This document shows positions 20,963-33,645 of a stretch of 34,100 nucleotides of DNA, piece by piece. The notes beneath the pieces were generated by a model. The model saw only the letters and a program-made list of their open reading frames with translations, did no database searches and was not told the DNA's origin. The DNA is from Oscillospiraceae bacterium. Lineage in GTDB: Bacteria; Bacillota; Clostridia; Oscillospirales; Ruminococcaceae. Position numbers and translations under genes: made by a program. Each line of letters begins with the position of its first letter. The stretch's first letter is position 1. Where the stretch lies: the NCBI GenBank assembly GCA_014799365.1, contig JAAVIF010000068.1, positions 1 to 34,100 of the forward strand. Direction: 5' to 3'.

Positions 20963-21445
20963 TTACCCTACGTTAATTTCTTCTATCAGCTTTTCCTCCG
21001 CAGCGGCCGCGTCAACATGACAAATCAAATAAGCGACTTCCCTTTCGCTTCCCACTACCGTAGCGTTAGCCGACTCCACCTGTTCGGGATAAAAAGCAAA
21101 ATCGTTAATAAGCGATTCCCTTCTTGCTTCCAAAGCCTCCACCGCTTTGCCTACCTCTCCGTCCTTTACCTTTAAAATAATAACCTCCACCACGTCAACG
21201 CTTAACATCTGCTGAACTACGGCATAGTCCTCGGCTATTGACAGATCAATTCCCATTTCCCCGATCCTGCTTTCATCCGTAACATCGATAAGCTGAGGAA
21301 AATCAATGCTGTTTACAACCGTATTCAACAGCTCCGCCGCAGTTTTATCGGTCTTACTTACAACGCCGCCTTCATTTGAGGAGCAGGCATTTAACATAAG
21401 CATAAGCGAAACTATCACCGCCAAAAAGGCCGTTATTTTTTTCAT
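20963..21445 (-). CDS. DUF4358-like lipoprotein
   Basis: MKKITAFLAVIVSLMLMLNACSS lipobox; TAAELLNTVVNSIDFPQLIDV... resembling DUF4358 proteins. Confidence 0.75.
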   Translation of the reverse strand: MKKITAFLAVIVSLMLMLNACSSNEGGVVSKTDKTAAELLNTVVNSIDFPQLIDVTDESRIGEMGIDLSIAEDYAVVQQMLSVDVVEVIILKVKDGEVGKAVEALEARRESLINDFAFYPEQVESANATVVGSEREVAYLICHVDAAAAEEKLIEEINVG

Positions 21446-22575
21446 AATCCAAACCTCTCTTTCATAATTCCTTTGACAAATTCCGCGTTTTTTTCGCTGT
21501 ACCAAGGCAGCTTGTCCAAGGTAAGACAGTAGTCGTTCTCAAAAAAGCTTTTTAACTCGCTTTCCGAGAATTTCTCGGGATTATGCAGCGGCAGGCCGTT
21601 TTTATCGAAAACGGGACGGTAATGCTCGTCTCTTTTATAAACGAACCCGCCCCACCACGGAAGCCACCACAGCCATTTTACATTATCCTTTTTCAGGTTT
21701 TCCGGGTCGGGCATATAACCGCATTCCGACAGTGCAGCCCTTTTGCCGTAGGTATATGAGGTAACATCAAGGTATCTTTCCTTTTGGGAAGAGTGGTCGA
21801 GAGGCAATTCCGAGTATATATCCTCTCCGCAAAAATCAAAGGTGTTTGGATTTACCGCCATTTCTCTGCTTTGACCGTTCCATACCCATATTAAATTGGT
21901 AAGCCTGTGATAGTTTTCCAAACGGTCGAAAATAATATACCAAAGCTTTTTGTAGGCCCTTACCGATTCCCCTCCGTCGTTCTTTCGGTTTCCCCACCAG
22001 AACCAGTTCCCGTCCGCTTCATGCAGGGGACGCCACAATACGGGAATATCCTCCGCTTCAAACCTCTTCAGCTCACTCGCCACCTTATCTATTTCCTCGA
22101 CGGCAAATTTGTATTCCGCCGTACCCTCCTCAACCGCCTTTATAATATCAAAGCTTGTTTTGCGGTCATAGTTCGTGGTCTTATAGTAAAACGCCCAATC
22201 GCAGTTTGCGGTATCGTTTATATTGTCGGGAGCATACCAGTGCCAGCACATAGTGATTATACAGCCGCTGTTTTTAGCCCAGTAAATCGCGCGGTCGGTC
22301 TGCGGCTGCTTAAGCTTCTTGTCAATATCCATAAAATCATAGCCCCTGACAGCGGGTAAGCGGTTTGTAATTCGATAATATACCGCATCCTCCAGCTCGG
22401 AGGGCTGTAAATACTGCTGTCCGCTTAAAATATTTTTCCCGTATATGGATTTCATATATTCAAAAAGCTTTTTTGTGGTTTCATTTGCGTTGCTTGAAAC
22501 AAGACAGTCGGGATCGACCTTCTTTTCTTCAAGCTCTTTTAAAAGTTTGTTCATATTTGTTTTATATATGCTCAT
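21442..22575 (-). CDS. Glycoside hydrolase, GH26 beta-mannanase-like, no signal peptide
   Basis: ILSGQQ, AVRGYDFMD, ITMCWHWYAP, DIPVLWRPLHEADGNWFWWG, NLIWVWNGQ. Confidence 0.87.
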   Translation of the reverse strand: MSIYKTNMNKLLKELEEKKVDPDCLVSSNANETTKKLFEYMKSIYGKNILSGQQYLQPSELEDAVYYRITNRLPAVRGYDFMDIDKKLKQPQTDRAIYWAKNSGCIITMCWHWYAPDNINDTANCDWAFYYKTTNYDRKTSFDIIKAVEEGTAEYKFAVEEIDKVASELKRFEAEDIPVLWRPLHEADGNWFWWGNRKNDGGESVRAYKKLWYIIFDRLENYHRLTNLIWVWNGQSREMAVNPNTFDFCGEDIYSELPLDHSSQKERYLDVTSYTYGKRAALSECGYMPDPENLKKDNVKWLWWLPWWGGFVYKRDEHYRPVFDKNGLPLHNPEKFSESELKSFFENDYCLTLDKLPWYSEKNAEFVKGIMKERFGL

Positions 22576-25206: not shown

Positions 25207-25809
25207 ATGGATAACAATCTGCATGAGCTTGTATTTATTTTTGACCAAAGCACGGAGATTGAAAAACAGTACACGGACGCACAAAAGGGCTTTATTGCTC
25301 TTATAGACGCGCAAAAGAAAGCGAAAACAAACACAAACGTTACAATCGACGTTTTCGGCAGCGAATATCTTAATGTTTGCGACGGCATTTCCATCAATGA
25401 CGTAAAATTTGCGGACGAGCTTTTCCCTCTCAGCGGAGTATGTCCTTTAACGGATTCGGCGGTAAAAGCCATTGACGATGTGGGAATAAGGCTCAACAGG
25501 ACGTATGAGAACTGCCGCCCCTCAAAGGTGATTGTCACCATTGTAACCTTCGGAAGGGACAACGCCAGCAAAAAGCACACCTATGACGAGCTGGCGGAGA
25601 TAATAAGGCGTCAGACCGAGGTTTACAAATGGAGCTTTTTCCTGCTTACCGATTTTTCCATAAATATGGAAAAGCTGAATATTCCCGAGGACAATACCGT
25701 TATCGTTAAGAAGAATGAAACGGACGGATTCAAAAAGGCCTATGAGGAGCTTAACGAAAAAATTACCGCGCTAAGAGATAAAATATCTTCGGAAAACAAT
25801 ACGCAATAA
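25207..25809 (+). CDS. VWA-like domain protein with degenerate MIDAS
   Basis: HELVFIFDQSTEIEKQY (DxSTE instead of DxSxS), CPLTDSAVKAIDDV, SKVIVTIVTFGRDNASKKHTYDEL. Confidence 0.65.
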   Translation: MDNNLHELVFIFDQSTEIEKQYTDAQKGFIALIDAQKKAKTNTNVTIDVFGSEYLNVCDGISINDVKFADELFPLSGVCPLTDSAVKAIDDVGIRLNRTYENCRPSKVIVTIVTFGRDNASKKHTYDELAEIIRRQTEVYKWSFFLLTDFSINMEKLNIPEDNTVIVKKNETDGFKKAYEELNEKITALRDKISSENNTQ

Positions 25810-25852: not shown

Positions 25853-26476
25853 ATGACACAGGCACAGATTTCGGAGATTGCGTCAACGGTCAACGCCGCA
25901 TCGGATTCGATATACGAAGCCTTGAAGTACGTATATTTCGTATGCTGCGATGACTTTTACAAAATCAACGTAAAAGACGTTTTTAAAATCGCTCTCAGCA
26001 ATGTGACCGACAGCAGGATATTAAGCAACTTGGGCTTTAAGCTGTACCCCGAAAAGATCGGAGATCTGAAAAATCCTCAGTTTGAGGAAGTGAAAAAGCT
26101 TATAAGCTACGCATTTGCAGTAAGACTGCCTTTTATAAAAAAATATCTTCCGCTGAAATCAAGCTTTACCGACGGCGATCTGAGAGATATGTTCAAGGCG
26201 GTTTGCGATTCGGGCGCGCGGAATATCGACAATATAATCACCATGGATTTTAAAACCAGCTTAAAGACAGCCACCAAGCAGAGAGAACAGGACGAGCCCG
26301 TTTTTGAAACCGAGTGGTTTAAAACATGGGTTTACGCCTACGGAAAAGAATTTGCGGTGATCAACAACAAAAATATGTTCTTTTTAGGCTGTGCCGACGC
26401 CTTGTTCGCTTTATACTGGGCCGCCCTTACGGACAAGCTTGTTGACATAGTTAAAAGCTCAATAACCGTATATTAA
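25853..26476 (+). CDS. Uncharacterised protein, partner of the VWA-like gene
   Basis: 207-aa ORF with RBS (agaaaggac); no family recognised. Confidence 0.7.
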   Translation: MTQAQISEIASTVNAASDSIYEALKYVYFVCCDDFYKINVKDVFKIALSNVTDSRILSNLGFKLYPEKIGDLKNPQFEEVKKLISYAFAVRLPFIKKYLPLKSSFTDGDLRDMFKAVCDSGARNIDNIITMDFKTSLKTATKQREQDEPVFETEWFKTWVYAYGKEFAVINNKNMFFLGCADALFALYWAALTDKLVDIVKSSITVY

Positions 26477-26551: not shown

Positions 26552-27757
26552 ATGAAAAAAAAAATATCTTTATTATGCACCGCGGCAATAGTTATGCTGT
26601 CGCTGACAGGCTGCGGCGGCGAAAACCCCGGAAATAACGAAAACAACGAAAGCGAGACTCAGAACATGACGGAAAACAACACGGAGGAAACTGTGAAAGA
26701 AGCGGTCTATACCGCAAATGAGAATAACGTAAAGCTGCTGGGACGTACATATTTCGACGAGGACATTTTATACTGCGCTCTTTCGGGAACGGGTGCGGAA
26801 TTTACCTTTACGGGTACGAAATGCTCCGTTGTCATTAAGGGCGACGATAACAGCAGCAACTCCGGCGCGGCGGACAATCAGGCAAGAGTAGGCATTTACG
26901 TTGACGGCGAACGCGTTATTGACGATATGATAAACGACAGCGAAAAAAGCTATGACGTATTTGAAAGCGACGAAGCCAAAACGGTTTCCGTATCGGTGGT
27001 AAAGCTGTCCGAATCCCCTATGTCAACTATCGGCATTAAGGAGATCAAGGTTACGGGAAGCGAAATAAAGCCCACTCCCGACAAGGATATGTATATAGAA
27101 TTTATCGGCGACTCCATAACCTGCGGCTACGGTATCGACGACCCCGATAAGGATCACCACTTTGTTACAAGCACGGAGGACGTTACAAAGGCCTACGCTT
27201 ATCTTACCGCACGGGCTTTGAACGCGGATTACAGCATAGTTTCCTTCAGCGGCTACGGCATTATTTCGGGATATACCACCAACGGTGAAAAGGTAACCGC
27301 TCAGACCGTACCCCAGTTCTACACAAAGCTTGGTTACAGCTGGAGCACCAACGGCACTTTTTCACCCCAAAATGTTGAATGGGATTTCAGCAAGCGTCAG
27401 CCCGATCTGGTAGTGATAAATCTGGGTACCAACGATGACAGCTACACTCAGGGCGACCTTGACAAGCAGAATGAATATTCCGAAAATTATACCGAATTTA
27501 TAAAGCTTATAAGAGAGAAAAACCCGTCGGCCCGTATTCTTTGCGTATTCGGCGTTATGGGCGACAGACTGTACCCCTATGTTGAACAGGCGGTTGAAAA
27601 TTACACCGCCGAAACAGGCGATACCAACGTTTCCTCGCTGCAGTTAAGACAGCAAAACGCGCGCGACGGCTATTCCGCAGACTGGCACCCCTCAGTGACC
27701 ACACATCAGAGAACGTCGGACGCGGTTGTGGAAGAAATTCACAATCTTATGGGATAA
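26552..27757 (+). CDS. SGNH/GDSL hydrolase lipoprotein, CE2-like acetyl esterase
   Basis: Lipobox LSLTGC; FIGDSITCGYG block I; NLGTNDDSYTQGD; SADWHPS block V; N-terminal beta-sandwich-like domain. Confidence 0.85.
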   Translation: MKKKISLLCTAAIVMLSLTGCGGENPGNNENNESETQNMTENNTEETVKEAVYTANENNVKLLGRTYFDEDILYCALSGTGAEFTFTGTKCSVVIKGDDNSSNSGAADNQARVGIYVDGERVIDDMINDSEKSYDVFESDEAKTVSVSVVKLSESPMSTIGIKEIKVTGSEIKPTPDKDMYIEFIGDSITCGYGIDDPDKDHHFVTSTEDVTKAYAYLTARALNADYSIVSFSGYGIISGYTTNGEKVTAQTVPQFYTKLGYSWSTNGTFSPQNVEWDFSKRQPDLVVINLGTNDDSYTQGDLDKQNEYSENYTEFIKLIREKNPSARILCVFGVMGDRLYPYVEQAVENYTAETGDTNVSSLQLRQQNARDGYSADWHPSVTTHQRTSDAVVEEIHNLMG

Positions 27758-27773
27758 TTTATAATAAATAAAA

Positions 27774-27818
27774 AATAAAAGGGACATTTTCACCGCTGAA
27801 AATGTCCTTTTTTGTTAA
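27774..27818. terminator. Intrinsic terminator
   Basis: AAAAGGGACATTTTCA-ccgc-TGAAAATGTCCTTTTTTG. Confidence 0.8.
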
Positions 27819-27820
27819 CA

Positions 27821-29407
27821 TTAACAATCACACATCCTGTATATTTCCGCATTACCTTTTTTTCCCGCCTTATCAACCACACCCATATACAAAAGTATTT
27901 CCAGCATAAGCTTTGCGTCGGTGCTTTTGACGCATTTCTGAAATTCCTTTACGGTAAAATCTTCGGGAAGCTCCTCGCAGGAAGGGATCAATACTTTGTA
28001 ATCGGCGGGCTTTTCAAGGTAAATTTCACGTCTCAGAGCCAACGGAGTTTTTGTGTAAGCCCCTCTTTTTCTTCTTCTCCCCGTTTTTTCCGAAACATAA
28101 TTCACCCTTTCCACATCAAGCTCCGCAATGCAGATCGTTAAATTAGGATCGGTCAAAAAGCTTTTTATCCGGTACAGCTCCAGGAAAAAATCGGTCAAGC
28201 TGTTGTTGTATCTGAAGCCGCCCTCTCTTATAACTTCCCCGCTCGTATCGCTTGCGGTGATCACCCTTGTGCGCTTTTCATAGGGATAAACCACCGTCAC
28301 ATGACAAACCGACAGCATGACCTCCAGTTTTTTGTTCAGCTTCTTAAAATTGGCGGTCTGTATTTCAAAAATACCGTTCTCGGTAACAATATCGGCGTAA
28401 AAGCTCCCTATCTTTGCTTCCTGATCATAATCCTCGGAAAAATAATTTTTCAGCGCGGAATGAATACACTTTTCGTTCAGAGTTCCTATATTTACCGCTT
28501 CTCTTGCTTTCGCCTTTTCCACCGCTGTTTTAAAACGCATAGTGTCGGGTTCTTTTATAATGTTTTCATGAGGTGTATAATCAAAAACAGCCGCTTGTTC
28601 TTTTTCGATAAATCTCGGCACGCTTATATTTTCGTTGCTGCCCAAAACCCCCGCCGCAATTTCCTTAAGCTCCTCGACGGCATTTGACACCGCATAGGCT
28701 CTGTCGGCAACCTTAAACATAGAAATATCGTTCATATTGTCCCCAAAGCAAACTACCTCGTCAGCCCTCAGTATTTCCTTAAGCTGCAAAACCGCGCTTG
28801 CTTTGGTAGCCCTTGAGGAAAACACCTCAAGCCAAAAATCTTCCTTGTGATAGTGATCGAAATATCCTACTGAAGAAAAGCCCTTTTCCTCGGTGAAAAC
28901 CTCATTTATGACCTCTTTCGGCAAAACGGGGTTAGTAAAGGTAAAGTAATGAATATCCCCCTCAAATAACTCCTCATAGCTTTTGCAGGGTCGTAAGGTC
29001 TTATCGCCCTTTCTGTCATTAAGGTAGTTTTTTATGCGGCGCGTGTCATGCTCGAGATAGCTCACTCTTTGCTCTCCGTCAATAAAGGCATACACCAGCG
29101 GAGTCTCATTATACTCTGTTATAGTGTTTTTTACCTCAGTCAGATCCATGCCGCCGAAATCGTTGAGCTTTATCGGCTCTCCGCTTTGTCCGTCGGCAAT
29201 GATAACACCGTTCATCAAAATAACGGGCAGCTTTATTTCCGCCTTGCACATCTGAAAATTTGCCGAACCGAAACGTCTCGCGGTGGCATAGGTAAACAAA
29301 ACGCCGTTATCGGACAATCTTTTGAGCATTTCCGCCGCTCTGTCCTTCAATCCCGCTTTATTGGTGAACAAAGTGCCGTCTAAGTCGGATATGTACAGGG
29401 TTTTCAT
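27821..29407 (-). CDS. Cof-type HAD phosphatase fused to a C-terminal PD-(D/E)XK nuclease-like domain
   Basis: HAD motifs YISDLDGTLFT, CFGDNMNDISMF; C-terminal NIGTLNEKCIHSALKNYF...KIGSFYADIVTENGIFEIQTANFKKLNKKLEVML. Confidence 0.75.
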   Translation of the reverse strand: MKTLYISDLDGTLFTNKAGLKDRAAEMLKRLSDNGVLFTYATARRFGSANFQMCKAEIKLPVILMNGVIIADGQSGEPIKLNDFGGMDLTEVKNTITEYNETPLVYAFIDGEQRVSYLEHDTRRIKNYLNDRKGDKTLRPCKSYEELFEGDIHYFTFTNPVLPKEVINEVFTEEKGFSSVGYFDHYHKEDFWLEVFSSRATKASAVLQLKEILRADEVVCFGDNMNDISMFKVADRAYAVSNAVEELKEIAAGVLGSNENISVPRFIEKEQAAVFDYTPHENIIKEPDTMRFKTAVEKAKAREAVNIGTLNEKCIHSALKNYFSEDYDQEAKIGSFYADIVTENGIFEIQTANFKKLNKKLEVMLSVCHVTVVYPYEKRTRVITASDTSGEVIREGGFRYNNSLTDFFLELYRIKSFLTDPNLTICIAELDVERVNYVSEKTGRRRKRGAYTKTPLALRREIYLEKPADYKVLIPSCEELPEDFTVKEFQKCVKSTDAKLMLEILLYMGVVDKAGKKGNAEIYRMCDC

Positions 29408-29470: not shown

Positions 29471-31363
29471 TTATGCCCCTATCTCATTACCGGTATAAAG
29501 CTGATAATACTTGCCCTTTTGCTCGATAAGCTGATCGTGGGTACCCCTTTCGATAATTCTGCCCTGCTCCATTACCATTATGCAGTCCGCGTTGCGTACC
29601 GTTGAAAGCCTGTGGGCGATAACGAAAGAGGTGCGTCCCGTCATAAGCGCGTCCATGCCGCGCTGTACAAGCTTTTCGGTACGGGTATCTATCGAAGAGG
29701 TAGCCTCGTCCAGAATAAGCACGGGAGGATCGGCAACCGCCGCGCGCGCTATGGCGAGAAGCTGCCTTTGTCCTTGGCTCAGATTCGCACCGTCGCCCGT
29801 AATGACCGTTTGATACCCCTCGGGCAAACGTCTAATAAATCCGTCAGCGTTGGCTAATTTTGCCGCCGCGATACATTCCTCGTCGCAGGCGTCTAATTTT
29901 CCGTAGCGGATATTGTCCATAACCGTACCCGTAAACAGATGAGTGTCCTGCAATACTATGGCGAGACTGTGGCGAAGATCGTCCTTTTTGATCTTGTTTA
30001 TGTTTATTCCGTCATACCTTATTTTACCGTCCTGAATGTCATAGAAACGGTTGATAAGATTTGTAATGGTGGTTTTGCCCGCGCCCGTGCTTCCTACCAA
30101 GGCTATTTTCTGTCCCGGCTCGGCGGTCATCTCTATATCGTGGAGCACCGGCTTGTCTTCAACATAGCCGAAATCCACTCCGTCAAAAACAACCTCGCCC
30201 TCAAGCTTTTTATACGTTACCGTGCCGTCCTCGGTATGACGGTGCTTCCAAGCCCATACGCCGGTGCTTTCGTCTGTTTCAATAATGCTTCCGTCACTGT
30301 TTTCCCTTGCGGTCACAAGCTCAACATATCCGTCGTCGGCCTCGGGCTTTTCGCCTGCCATGTCAAATACGCGCTGCGCACCCGCCGTTGCCATAACAAT
30401 ACTGCTGATCTGCTGGCTTATCTGGGTTATCGGCATGGAAAAGTTTCTGTTAAGGGTCAAGAATGTGACCAAGGTACCCACCGTCAGGCCCCATTGACCG
30501 CTCAGCGCAAGCACCGCGCCGAGAATCGCGCAGAGTACATAGCTTATGTGGCCTATATTGCCGTTTACGGGCATTATGATGTTGGCGATCTTGTTTGCGT
30601 CGTTGGCACTTTCTCTTAAGCTGCCGTTAAGCTCTCTGAACCGCTGCAGGGTCTTTTCCTCGTGGCAGAATACCTTAACCACCTTTTGCCCTTCGATCAT
30701 TTCCTCAATATAGCCGTTTACCTTACCCAGATTCTTTTGCTGGTTGATAAAGTACTTTGAGGAAAGTCCGCTGAATTTAACAGTGACAAACATAGCCACA
30801 GCCGCCATTATCACCGCCATAACGGTCAGCGGAACGCTTAGCACTATCATGCTCACAAAGGTTGAAACAAAGGTGATAGTGGAATTTATAAGCTGCGGGA
30901 AGCTTTGGCTTATTACCTGTCTCAGAGTATCTATATCGTTGGTGTACACCGACATAATATCGCCGTGAGCGTGAGTGTCAAAGTATTTTATCGGAAGCGA
31001 CTCCATATTTTCAAACAGCTCGGAGCGGAGTCTTTTCAGCGTACCCTGTGAAACGTTTACCATGATTCGGTTGTAACCGTAAGAGGCGATTATTCCCACA
31101 AGGAGAATCGACGCTAAAGTAACCAACGCCTGCGCCAAAGAAGCGTATTCGGGTATCTCCTGTTCGGTCAGAGGCTTTATGTAATCGTCTATAAGAGAGC
31201 GTATAAACAGCGTTCCGAAAAGGGTGGTTATCGACGATACTATTATCCCTATCACAACGACCAGGCAGGAAAATTTATAGTTTTTAAGCACATAGGCAAA
31301 GATATGTTTAAGCGTGAGCATGGGATTTTTGCTTTTCGCTCCGCCTCGTCTCATAGGTGGCAT
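29471..31363 (-). CDS. ABC transporter, fused permease/ATP-binding subunit (canonical catalytic residues)
   Basis: Walker A GSTGAGKTT, signature LSQGQ, Walker B VLILDEATSSID, H-loop VIAHRLST; start set at 31363 by the RBS. Confidence 0.92.
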   Translation of the reverse strand: MPPMRRGGAKSKNPMLTLKHIFAYVLKNYKFSCLVVVIGIIVSSITTLFGTLFIRSLIDDYIKPLTEQEIPEYASLAQALVTLASILLVGIIASYGYNRIMVNVSQGTLKRLRSELFENMESLPIKYFDTHAHGDIMSVYTNDIDTLRQVISQSFPQLINSTITFVSTFVSMIVLSVPLTVMAVIMAAVAMFVTVKFSGLSSKYFINQQKNLGKVNGYIEEMIEGQKVVKVFCHEEKTLQRFRELNGSLRESANDANKIANIIMPVNGNIGHISYVLCAILGAVLALSGQWGLTVGTLVTFLTLNRNFSMPITQISQQISSIVMATAGAQRVFDMAGEKPEADDGYVELVTARENSDGSIIETDESTGVWAWKHRHTEDGTVTYKKLEGEVVFDGVDFGYVEDKPVLHDIEMTAEPGQKIALVGSTGAGKTTITNLINRFYDIQDGKIRYDGININKIKKDDLRHSLAIVLQDTHLFTGTVMDNIRYGKLDACDEECIAAAKLANADGFIRRLPEGYQTVITGDGANLSQGQRQLLAIARAAVADPPVLILDEATSSIDTRTEKLVQRGMDALMTGRTSFVIAHRLSTVRNADCIMVMEQGRIIERGTHDQLIEQKGKYYQLYTGNEIGA

Positions 31364-31438
31364 TAAAATCAATCCTTTCTTTATATAAAATCAATTAGCG
31401 TAGCCTCATAATATGTGCCGAAAATGGCTGTGCAGTTA

Positions 31439-33181
31439 TTAAGCCGGCTTGTCGAAGTCTCCTCCCGCCTGCATTTGGACGTTATATATATCCTGGTATA
31501 TTTCATTGTTTTTAAGCAAATTTTCATGAGTATCGAAGCCGCTTACCTGTCCCTCGTCCAGAACAAGGATACGGTCAGCTTCCTGTATACTGGAAATACG
31601 CTGAGATATTATGAGCTTTGTTGTACCCGGAATACGCTGTGCAAAGGCTTTTCTTATTTTACTGTCGGTAGCCGTGTCAACCGCGCTGGTGGAATCGTCA
31701 AGTATAAGCACCTTTGGCTGCTTGAGCAACGCTCTCGCTATGCAAAGACGCTGCTTTTGTCCGCCCGAAACATTGGTGCCGCCCTGTTCTATCCAAGTGT
31801 TGTACCTGTCGGGGAAACGCTCGATAAATTCATCGGCGCAAGCCTGTCTGCACACCTCCTCACATTCCTCCTCGGTAGCGTCTTCCTTGCCCCAGCGGAG
31901 GTTGTCAAGAATAGTACCCGAAAACAAAACGTTCTTCTGAAGCACTACGGCGACCTGATTTCGCAGTGCTTCCATGTCGTAGCTGCGAACGTCTCTGCCG
32001 CCTACAAGCACCTCTCCCTCGGTCACGTCGTACAGTCTGCTTATAAGGTTGACAAAGCTGGATTTGCCGCAGCCCGTGCCGCCGATTATACCTATTGTTT
32101 CTCCCGCGTTGATCTTAAGGTTTATATTGTGCAGAGTGTCCTCGCCGCTGCCCTGCTTGTAGGAGAAGCAAACGTTCTTAAACTCGATGCTTCCGTTTTT
32201 AATATCGGTATCGGGTTCATCGGGATTTGTAAGATCGGGCTGCTCGTCCAATACCTCGCAGATTCTTTTCGCGCTTGCAATACTCATTGTTATCATAACA
32301 AATATCATCGAAAGCATCATAAGCGACATAAGCATGCTCATTATGTAGCTGAAAAGGGAGGTAAGGTTGCCGGTAGTCAATGTGCCGCCTACAATATAAT
32401 GCGCGCCGAGCCATGATAACGCTATCATACATCCGTAAACGGAAAGCATCATAACGGGACTGTTAAAGGCAAGAGTTGCTTCGGCCTTTATAAACATTCC
32501 GCAAAGCTTCTCGGCCGCCTTTGAAAATTTCTTGTTTTCGTAATCCTCGCGCACAAACGCCTTAACTACCCTTATTCCGGAAACGTTTTCCTGAACGCTT
32601 GCGTTAAGCGCGTCGTACTTTGCGAACACCTCGTTGAAAATAGGCATGACTCTTTTCATTATAAGAAAAAGAACAATGCCAAGGAAAAGCAAAACGGCAA
32701 AGAAAACCAAGCTCAATTTCACGTTTATTGAAAAGCTCATTATCATGCTGCAAATCAGCATTAAGGGTGAACGAACCGCGATTCTGAGGATCATCTGATA
32801 CGCGTTCTGCAAATTTGTTACATCGGTGGTCATACGCGTAATAAGTCCCGCGGTGCTGAACTTGTCAATGTTGGCGAAGGAGAACTTTTGGATGTTTTCG
32901 TACATTCCGTCTCTTAAATTATAGGCAAAGCCCGTTGAAGCATAGGACGCATACCGCCCCGCCTGTATGCCGAAAAACAGGCTTAATAAAGCCAACGCAA
33001 CCATAATGCCGCCGTAGATAAGAACATTGTTAATATTGTTCGCTTCAATGCCGTGGTCGATAATAGACGCGGTAACGTAGGGAATAAGTATTTCCATAAA
33101 TACTTCCATAGCGGTAAATATTGGCGTCAGGATCGAGGCTTTTTTGTACTTGCCTATAAATCTGCCAAGTGTTTTTAACAT
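31439..33181 (-). CDS. ABC transporter, fused permease/ATP-binding subunit (degenerate catalytic residues)
   Basis: Walker A GGTGCGKSS, signature VSGGQKQRL, Walker B VLILDDSTSAVD, H-loop position Q (LIISQRISS). Confidence 0.92.
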   Translation of the reverse strand: MLKTLGRFIGKYKKASILTPIFTAMEVFMEILIPYVTASIIDHGIEANNINNVLIYGGIMVALALLSLFFGIQAGRYASYASTGFAYNLRDGMYENIQKFSFANIDKFSTAGLITRMTTDVTNLQNAYQMILRIAVRSPLMLICSMIMSFSINVKLSLVFFAVLLFLGIVLFLIMKRVMPIFNEVFAKYDALNASVQENVSGIRVVKAFVREDYENKKFSKAAEKLCGMFIKAEATLAFNSPVMMLSVYGCMIALSWLGAHYIVGGTLTTGNLTSLFSYIMSMLMSLMMLSMIFVMITMSIASAKRICEVLDEQPDLTNPDEPDTDIKNGSIEFKNVCFSYKQGSGEDTLHNINLKINAGETIGIIGGTGCGKSSFVNLISRLYDVTEGEVLVGGRDVRSYDMEALRNQVAVVLQKNVLFSGTILDNLRWGKEDATEEECEEVCRQACADEFIERFPDRYNTWIEQGGTNVSGGQKQRLCIARALLKQPKVLILDDSTSAVDTATDSKIRKAFAQRIPGTTKLIISQRISSIQEADRILVLDEGQVSGFDTHENLLKNNEIYQDIYNVQMQAGGDFDKPA

Positions 33182-33207
33182 TCTGCAATCAGTCCTTTCT
33201 TTTTGTT

Positions 33208-33645
33208 CTAAGAATTGTTTATCATTTTCTGAAGCATATCTCGGAAAGCTTGCTTTTCCTCTTTGGTAAACCCTTTTAATATACGCTTATGATTTTCGTC
33301 CATGGAATTCATTACATGACTGCAAATATTTCTTCCGCTGTCTGTGATCCTGACTATCTTAATTCGCTTGTCGTCCTTATCTGTCACGCTTTCCACCAGT
33401 TTTTTCTTTTCAAGCCGCTGAATAATACCCGCGGCGGTGGACTGAGCTACTCCGAATCGGCGTTCAAGCTCCTTTAGCGGCATTTCCCCTTTTTCGTATG
33501 AGCCTTCCGAATGGACAACGGCAAGAAGCATTTTAAGCTGCGATGCTGTAATATCATTTGACTGTAAATCCGAATTGGCTTTTTTCTCCATAGTATCACT
33601 AAGCCTTTTCAACAGTTCAAATATTTGAAATTCTTCCCTTTCCAT
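33208..33645 (-). CDS. MarR-family transcriptional regulator
   Basis: SQLKMLLAVVHSEGSYEKGEMPLKELERRFGVAQSTAAGIIQRLEKKKLVESVTDKDDKRIKIVRITDSG wHTH. Confidence 0.9.
   Translation of the reverse strand: MEREEFQIFELLKRLSDTMEKKANSDLQSNDITASQLKMLLAVVHSEGSYEKGEMPLKELERRFGVAQSTAAGIIQRLEKKKLVESVTDKDDKRIKIVRITDSGRNICSHVMNSMDENHKRILKGFTKEEKQAFRDMLQKMINNS

Follow-up and report, generated by a model that had tools for sequence, protein, structure and literature searches.

A single intact gene at positions 27821-29407 of the window (the whole 34,100-nucleotide stretch of Oscillospiraceae DNA analyzed here) encodes a Cof-type HAD phosphatase fused to a C-terminal half, hereafter the C-domain, in which a PD-(D/E)XK-like core is predicted to be followed by a winged helix. 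The interpretation we favor, with a probability of roughly 0.6, is that the C-domain represents a family of DNA-binding, metal-dependent nucleases (PD-(D/E)XK-winged-helix) engaged in chromosome maintenance, in front of which a Cof-type phosphatase was fused once. The fold class and the active-site variant are known; the C-domain family is new in that none of the libraries searched contains a curated model of it, and we rate it as a new PD-(D/E)XK–wHTH family with a HAD fusion confined to one lineage.

The gene is a 528-codon open reading frame on the minus strand (29407→27821), with an ATG start and a GGAGG ribosome-binding site, and the original prediction had placed it at exactly these boundaries. 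The plus-strand frame over 27821-29407 is interrupted by stops. The following features were assigned:

27821-29407, minus strand: complete fused gene (HAD-IIB phosphatase, linker, PD-(D/E)XK-like core and winged helix), based on the open reading frame, the same architecture in other species and purifying selection
28604-29407, minus strand: Cof-type HAD-IIB phosphatase, residues 1-268, based on Pfam, NCBIfam and PDB matches (1nf2 and others)
28541-28603, minus strand: linker, residues 269-289, poorly conserved in the alignment
27980-28498, minus strand: PD-(D/E)XK-like core, residues 304-476, based on AlphaFold models, invariant residues and a weak Foldseek match to YaeQ
28472-28474, minus strand: E312, putative motif I glutamate at the start of core helix 1, invariant in 86 homologues
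28391-28393, minus strand: D339, putative motif II aspartate in core strand 2 (AlphaFold position), invariant in 86 homologues
28358-28366, minus strand: E348-I349-Q350, putative motif III (E-x-Q) in and after core strand 3 (AlphaFold position), with E and Q invariant in 86 homologues
28328-28330, minus strand: K360, putative motif IV lysine in core helix 2, 10 residues after Q350, invariant in 86 homologues and with the Q84-R94 spacing of RpnA
27830-27958, minus strand: C-terminal winged helix-turn-helix, residues 484-526, based on AlphaFold and Foldseek
27782-27807, strand not assigned: terminator-like hairpin between the fused gene and a convergent CE2 esterase gene (11 pairs and a T-rich tail; consensus match only)

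Residues 1-268 match Hydrolase_3 (PF08282) over its full length (E 1.8e-36; 126.6 bits, cut-off 20.9), and PDB relatives of this half include 1nf2. The HAD-SF-IIB model is passed (62.5 bits, cut-off 41.8), while TIGR00099 (Cof), the best NCBIfam model, stays under its cut-off (99.9 bits vs 137); for this reason the half is filed only as HAD-IIB, Cof-like. All HAD motifs I-IV (DxD, T/S, K, GDxxND) are present, with D8, D10, T42, K202, D223 and D227 as catalytic residues, and these six positions are retained in 34-35 of 35 aligned rows. The claim that the first ~270 residues make up a complete Cof-like HAD phosphatase is thus borne out. Members of the Cof class, with its IIB cap, usually act on small phosphorylated metabolites. 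They are normally stand-alone proteins of ~270 aa, whereas the window gene bears an extra C-terminal domain of 240 aa; stand-alone HAD relatives in sister genera show 34-36% identity.

The fusion is real and ancient. When the C-domain was searched alone, a match was found in 32 of 36 same-genus genomes, the window's own included, and the four genomes without a match are all drafts less than 90% complete. The fusion is intact in 30 of the 32 (the exceptions are L008, whose HAD half is decayed, and L049, which is cut by a contig end), and it is also found in L096, L097 and L099, which represent a second genus within the family. Assembly error or frameshift can be ruled out, as the same fusion occurs in dozens of species. 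In a phylogeny of 86 C-domains, the fused copies group together in a single clade (support 99) that is separate from the free-standing ones, and one fusion event therefore suffices. A second, independent fusion seemed to exist in L100, a 536-aa open frame that had been tallied as fused by the script used for the tree. On inspection this is not a fusion: the upstream part is arginine-rich and lacks HAD motifs, and an internal Met is most likely the true start of the protein.

Comparison of the window gene with its closest relative, L002, yielded dN/dS values of ~0.10 for the HAD half and ~0.06 for the C-half, which indicate purifying selection on both. In L008 (L008:1480-2772), the HAD half has lost most of the cap and the TAR motif (motif II), while the C-domain keeps every invariant residue; hence, an active HAD is dispensable for the C-domain. 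In another same-genus species, a 782-aa open frame (L098:3869-6214) carries a methyltransferase-like stretch in frame upstream of the HAD-nuclease fusion, which could be either a further fusion or an unterminated neighbor. The combination is unusual, as the original prediction had it. A literature search for HAD-nuclease fusions found nothing relevant, and the papers searched contained no instance of the HAD-(PD-(D/E)XK)-wHTH architecture.

Residues ~290-526 gave no significant match in Pfam, NCBIfam, PADLOC or PHROGs, and no credible sequence match in the PDB. A PDB profile match of the C-domain to mevalonate kinase (E 0.005) was discarded as a chance match because both fold and motifs differ. 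AlphaFold models built from the family alignment had a mean pLDDT of 92 and a pTM of 0.88 (240-residue model), and 92.5 and 0.87 for the core alone. The predicted order is helix-strand-strand-strand-helix-strand, a further helix and strands, and then a winged helix (helices 198-205 and 210-220, strands 223-229 and 232-237 in the numbering of the 240-residue model). The predicted α-β-β-β-α-β arrangement, made of helix 314-323, strands 329-333, 336-342 and 345-349, helix 354-367 and strand 370-386, is the order of the PD-(D/E)XK core.

Foldseek searches with the winged helix included returned mostly winged-helix proteins (CadC, NolR and others), with probabilities up to 0.97 and E-values of 0.1 or worse. 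With the core as the query, all four YaeQ crystal structures, which we take to have a PD-(D/E)XK-like fold, ranked within the top 11 chains of a library of 350,542. Their E-values (0.1-0.7), TM scores (0.32-0.39) and rmsd (9-11) make the fold match statistically non-significant. As the YaeQ matches come with non-significant E-values and poor superposition, we grade the PD-(D/E)XK fold of the C-domain as supported by prediction and motif, short of proof.

Ten residues are invariant in the 86 homologues: G308, E312, H316, K320, E330, D339, E348, Q350, K360 and P375. The majority are charged or polar, and they lie where a site of this type would have them. The same ten are invariant in alignment A2, made of 62 more diverse homologues with 25-73% identity to the window copy, and judging from these alignments the motif is beyond chance. 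D339 in strand 2 and E348-x-Q350 at strand 3 make up the PD-(D/E)XK motif without its canonical strand-3 lysine, which is replaced in this Q variant, with K360 lying on core helix 2. Similar departures have been described: CoiA has a PD-EXQ site like that of BglII plus a helix arginine (PMC1189080), and migration of the lysine to helix 2 has been proposed for DUF506/DUF790, while the YhgA-like/Rpn proteins carry an E-x-Q form of the site (PMC1913061). RpnA (D11, D63, E82-x-Q84, R94) is a demonstrated Mg2+-dependent endonuclease whose in vivo effects are abolished by D11A, D63A and E82A (PMC5350276). The spacing between the glutamine and the basic residue is 10 in both the C-domain (Q350-K360) and RpnA (Q84-R94).

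The original prediction of a restriction-endonuclease-like C-terminal part was based on two strings, NEKCIHSALKNYF and SFYADIVTENGIFEIQT, which are present as residues 311-323 and 335-351. Its core stands, as the topology and the invariant D...E-x-Q agree with it; the winged helix, K360 and the existence of a stand-alone family had been missed. Altogether, models and alignments support a nuclease-like nature of the C-domain, and nuclease activity is likely on prediction.

Comparison with known systems can be summarized as follows:

(i). YaeQ (PF07152; PDB 3c0u, 2g3w, 7tcb, 2ot9) provides the sole structures that Foldseek recovers consistently with the core model, and the structural alignment spans the whole ~175-residue core. 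However, YaeQ has neither a winged helix nor a HAD fusion, the C-domain has no sequence or profile match to PF07152, and no YaeQ match was found in the window genome.

(ii). Rpn/YhgA-like proteins (PF04754), CoiA (PF06054) and BglII are E-x-Q variants of PD-(D/E)XK with the same motif order as the C-domain: an acidic residue in helix 1, D in strand 2, E-x-Q in strand 3 and a basic residue in helix 2. Their C-terminal parts are, however, unlike that of the C-domain, which has no Pfam match to PF04754 or PF06054.

(iii). COG5482, TnsA and NaeI share the PD-(D/E)XK-wHTH architecture, a nuclease-like core plus a winged helix, and COG5482, like the window protein, has its winged helix at the C-terminus (PMC1189080). 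The site of COG5482 is different (E-CD-ELK), and TnsA works within Tn7-type transposons, no sign of which was seen here. No sequence match of the C-domain to any of the three was detected.

Outside the fusion, the C-domain is a free-standing protein of ~250 aa. The domain is present in 129 of the 395 sampled genomes of the order, nearly always as a single chromosomal copy, and stand-alone copies occur in many families. Beyond the order, a phylum-wide sample of 300 contained 8 carriers, from two families. Searches of 72,556 plasmids, IMG/VR and 50,697 phage records turned up no relatives, negatives whose sensitivity is limited because viral sequences were scanned with a single peptide pattern and plasmids with a single stand-alone query. 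The neighbors of stand-alone copies vary between lineages and none is conserved; among those examined there were no defense genes, and no HAD partner adjoins these copies.

A particular arrangement is found in the second fused genus, where the gene order is hisS, a pfkB-type kinase, the fusion, addB and addA (hisS was assigned by eye). The fusion and addB are separated by gaps of 4-8 bp or overlap slightly (L096:4992-10332, L097:5622-10797, L099:1741-6785). The best NCBIfam models for these neighbors are those of AddB and AddA, both under cut-off, and AddA is truncated at the end of the locus. This adjacency is the sole hint provided by gene context, and because it concerns a single lineage among several dozen, it may have arisen by chance. 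Control by the SOS response was discarded, as 124 upstream regions contained no LexA-type GAAC-N4-GTTC-like box. Replacement of the resolvase RuvC by the C-domain was also discarded: of 148 genomes from the order, 144 have RuvC, and the two show no complementarity.

A tentative model can be proposed in which the winged helix would bind duplex DNA, one or more metal ions would be held by E312, E330, D339 and E348, and Q350 and K360 would place water and phosphate, the active-site lysine having presumably shifted from strand 3 to helix 2. The role would probably be chromosome maintenance and not defense. The gene for a Cof-type metabolite phosphatase would have been joined once, in the ancestor of the two related genera, and the HAD domain is most likely either an independent activity borne by the same polypeptide or a partner with a regulatory function, because the nuclease half exists elsewhere without it. 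The nuclease reading is favored by the core topology, the ten invariant residues, the ranking of YaeQ, the layout typical of ExQ families and the winged helix, and also by the stand-alone copies, the single fusion clade, L008, the dN/dS values and the adjacency to addB-addA. Weighing against it are the non-significant Foldseek scores, the lack of a YaeQ profile or Pfam match, of a conserved neighbor and of a LexA-type box, and the restriction of the addAB adjacency to a single lineage.

One alternative, which we consider unlikely, is that the protein is a one-component regulator: the PD-(D/E)XK-like domain would bind a ligand that the HAD domain makes or removes in phosphorylated form, and the winged helix would bind an operator. 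A winged helix at the C-terminus, the fusion to a small-molecule phosphatase, the replacement of the lysine of E-x-K by Q and the solitary nature of the genes are all in line with this idea. Nevertheless, the full invariance of ten residues in 86 divergent sequences looks like that of a catalytic and not a ligand-binding site, the motif order is that of active ExQ nucleases, and the stand-alone copies have no adjoining HAD partner.

Coupling of both activities, with the HAD domain removing 3'/5' phosphates or nucleotides from the ends that the nuclease generates, seems quite improbable. The halves do stay fused, with both active sites intact, in 30 same-genus genomes, purifying selection acts on both, and in one genus the gene lies in an operon with AddAB, a DNA-end-processing enzyme. 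However, Cof/IIB caps leave the active site accessible to small substrates only, and the DNA 3'-phosphatases known to us are capless HADs; furthermore, L008 lost HAD function and kept the nuclease, and most of the C-domain family lacks HAD. The related notion of a novel type of bifunctional DNA-repair enzyme, a winged-helix PD-(D/E)XK nuclease that would work with AddAB in DNA-end processing while the HAD domain cleans or recycles phosphorylated products, appears very doubtful. Least likely of the rivals is the defense effector contemplated in the original prediction, in which the nuclease would cut invading DNA and the HAD domain would process nucleotides or a signal: PD-(D/E)XK folds are common in restriction, and RpnA, a functional analogue, is from a family whose members were subsequently reported to be phage-defense toxins (PMC10327210), but relatives in phages, plasmids and viral contigs, a PADLOC family, conserved or defense neighbors and an antitoxin-like partner were all missing from our searches, and the gene is nearly always a single chromosomal copy, present in about one third of the order.

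The C-domain defines an uncatalogued, widespread, single-copy family from gut-type Clostridia, characterized by an invariant E...D...ExQ...K site plus a predicted winged helix. It offers a concrete candidate chromosomal nuclease, amenable to assay, from organisms in which DNA maintenance has received little study. Fixation of the HAD fusion across a genus, together with loss of the HAD half alone in one species, provides a natural experiment on the mutual dependence of both activities.

In the window, the fused gene lies 64 bp downstream of a group of same-strand genes (29471-33645, minus strand) that encode a MarR regulator and two ABC exporter halves, and the group and the fused gene may share a transcript in the source species. 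Ordinary genes for plant-fiber degradation are found on the other side, namely a CE2/GDSL carbohydrate esterase (26552-27757, plus strand) and a GH26 glycoside hydrolase (21442-22575, minus strand). Two adjacent plus-strand open reading frames of ~200 aa (25207-25809 and 25853-26476) have no Pfam match; the first, judged by eye, looks like a degenerate von Willebrand A domain.
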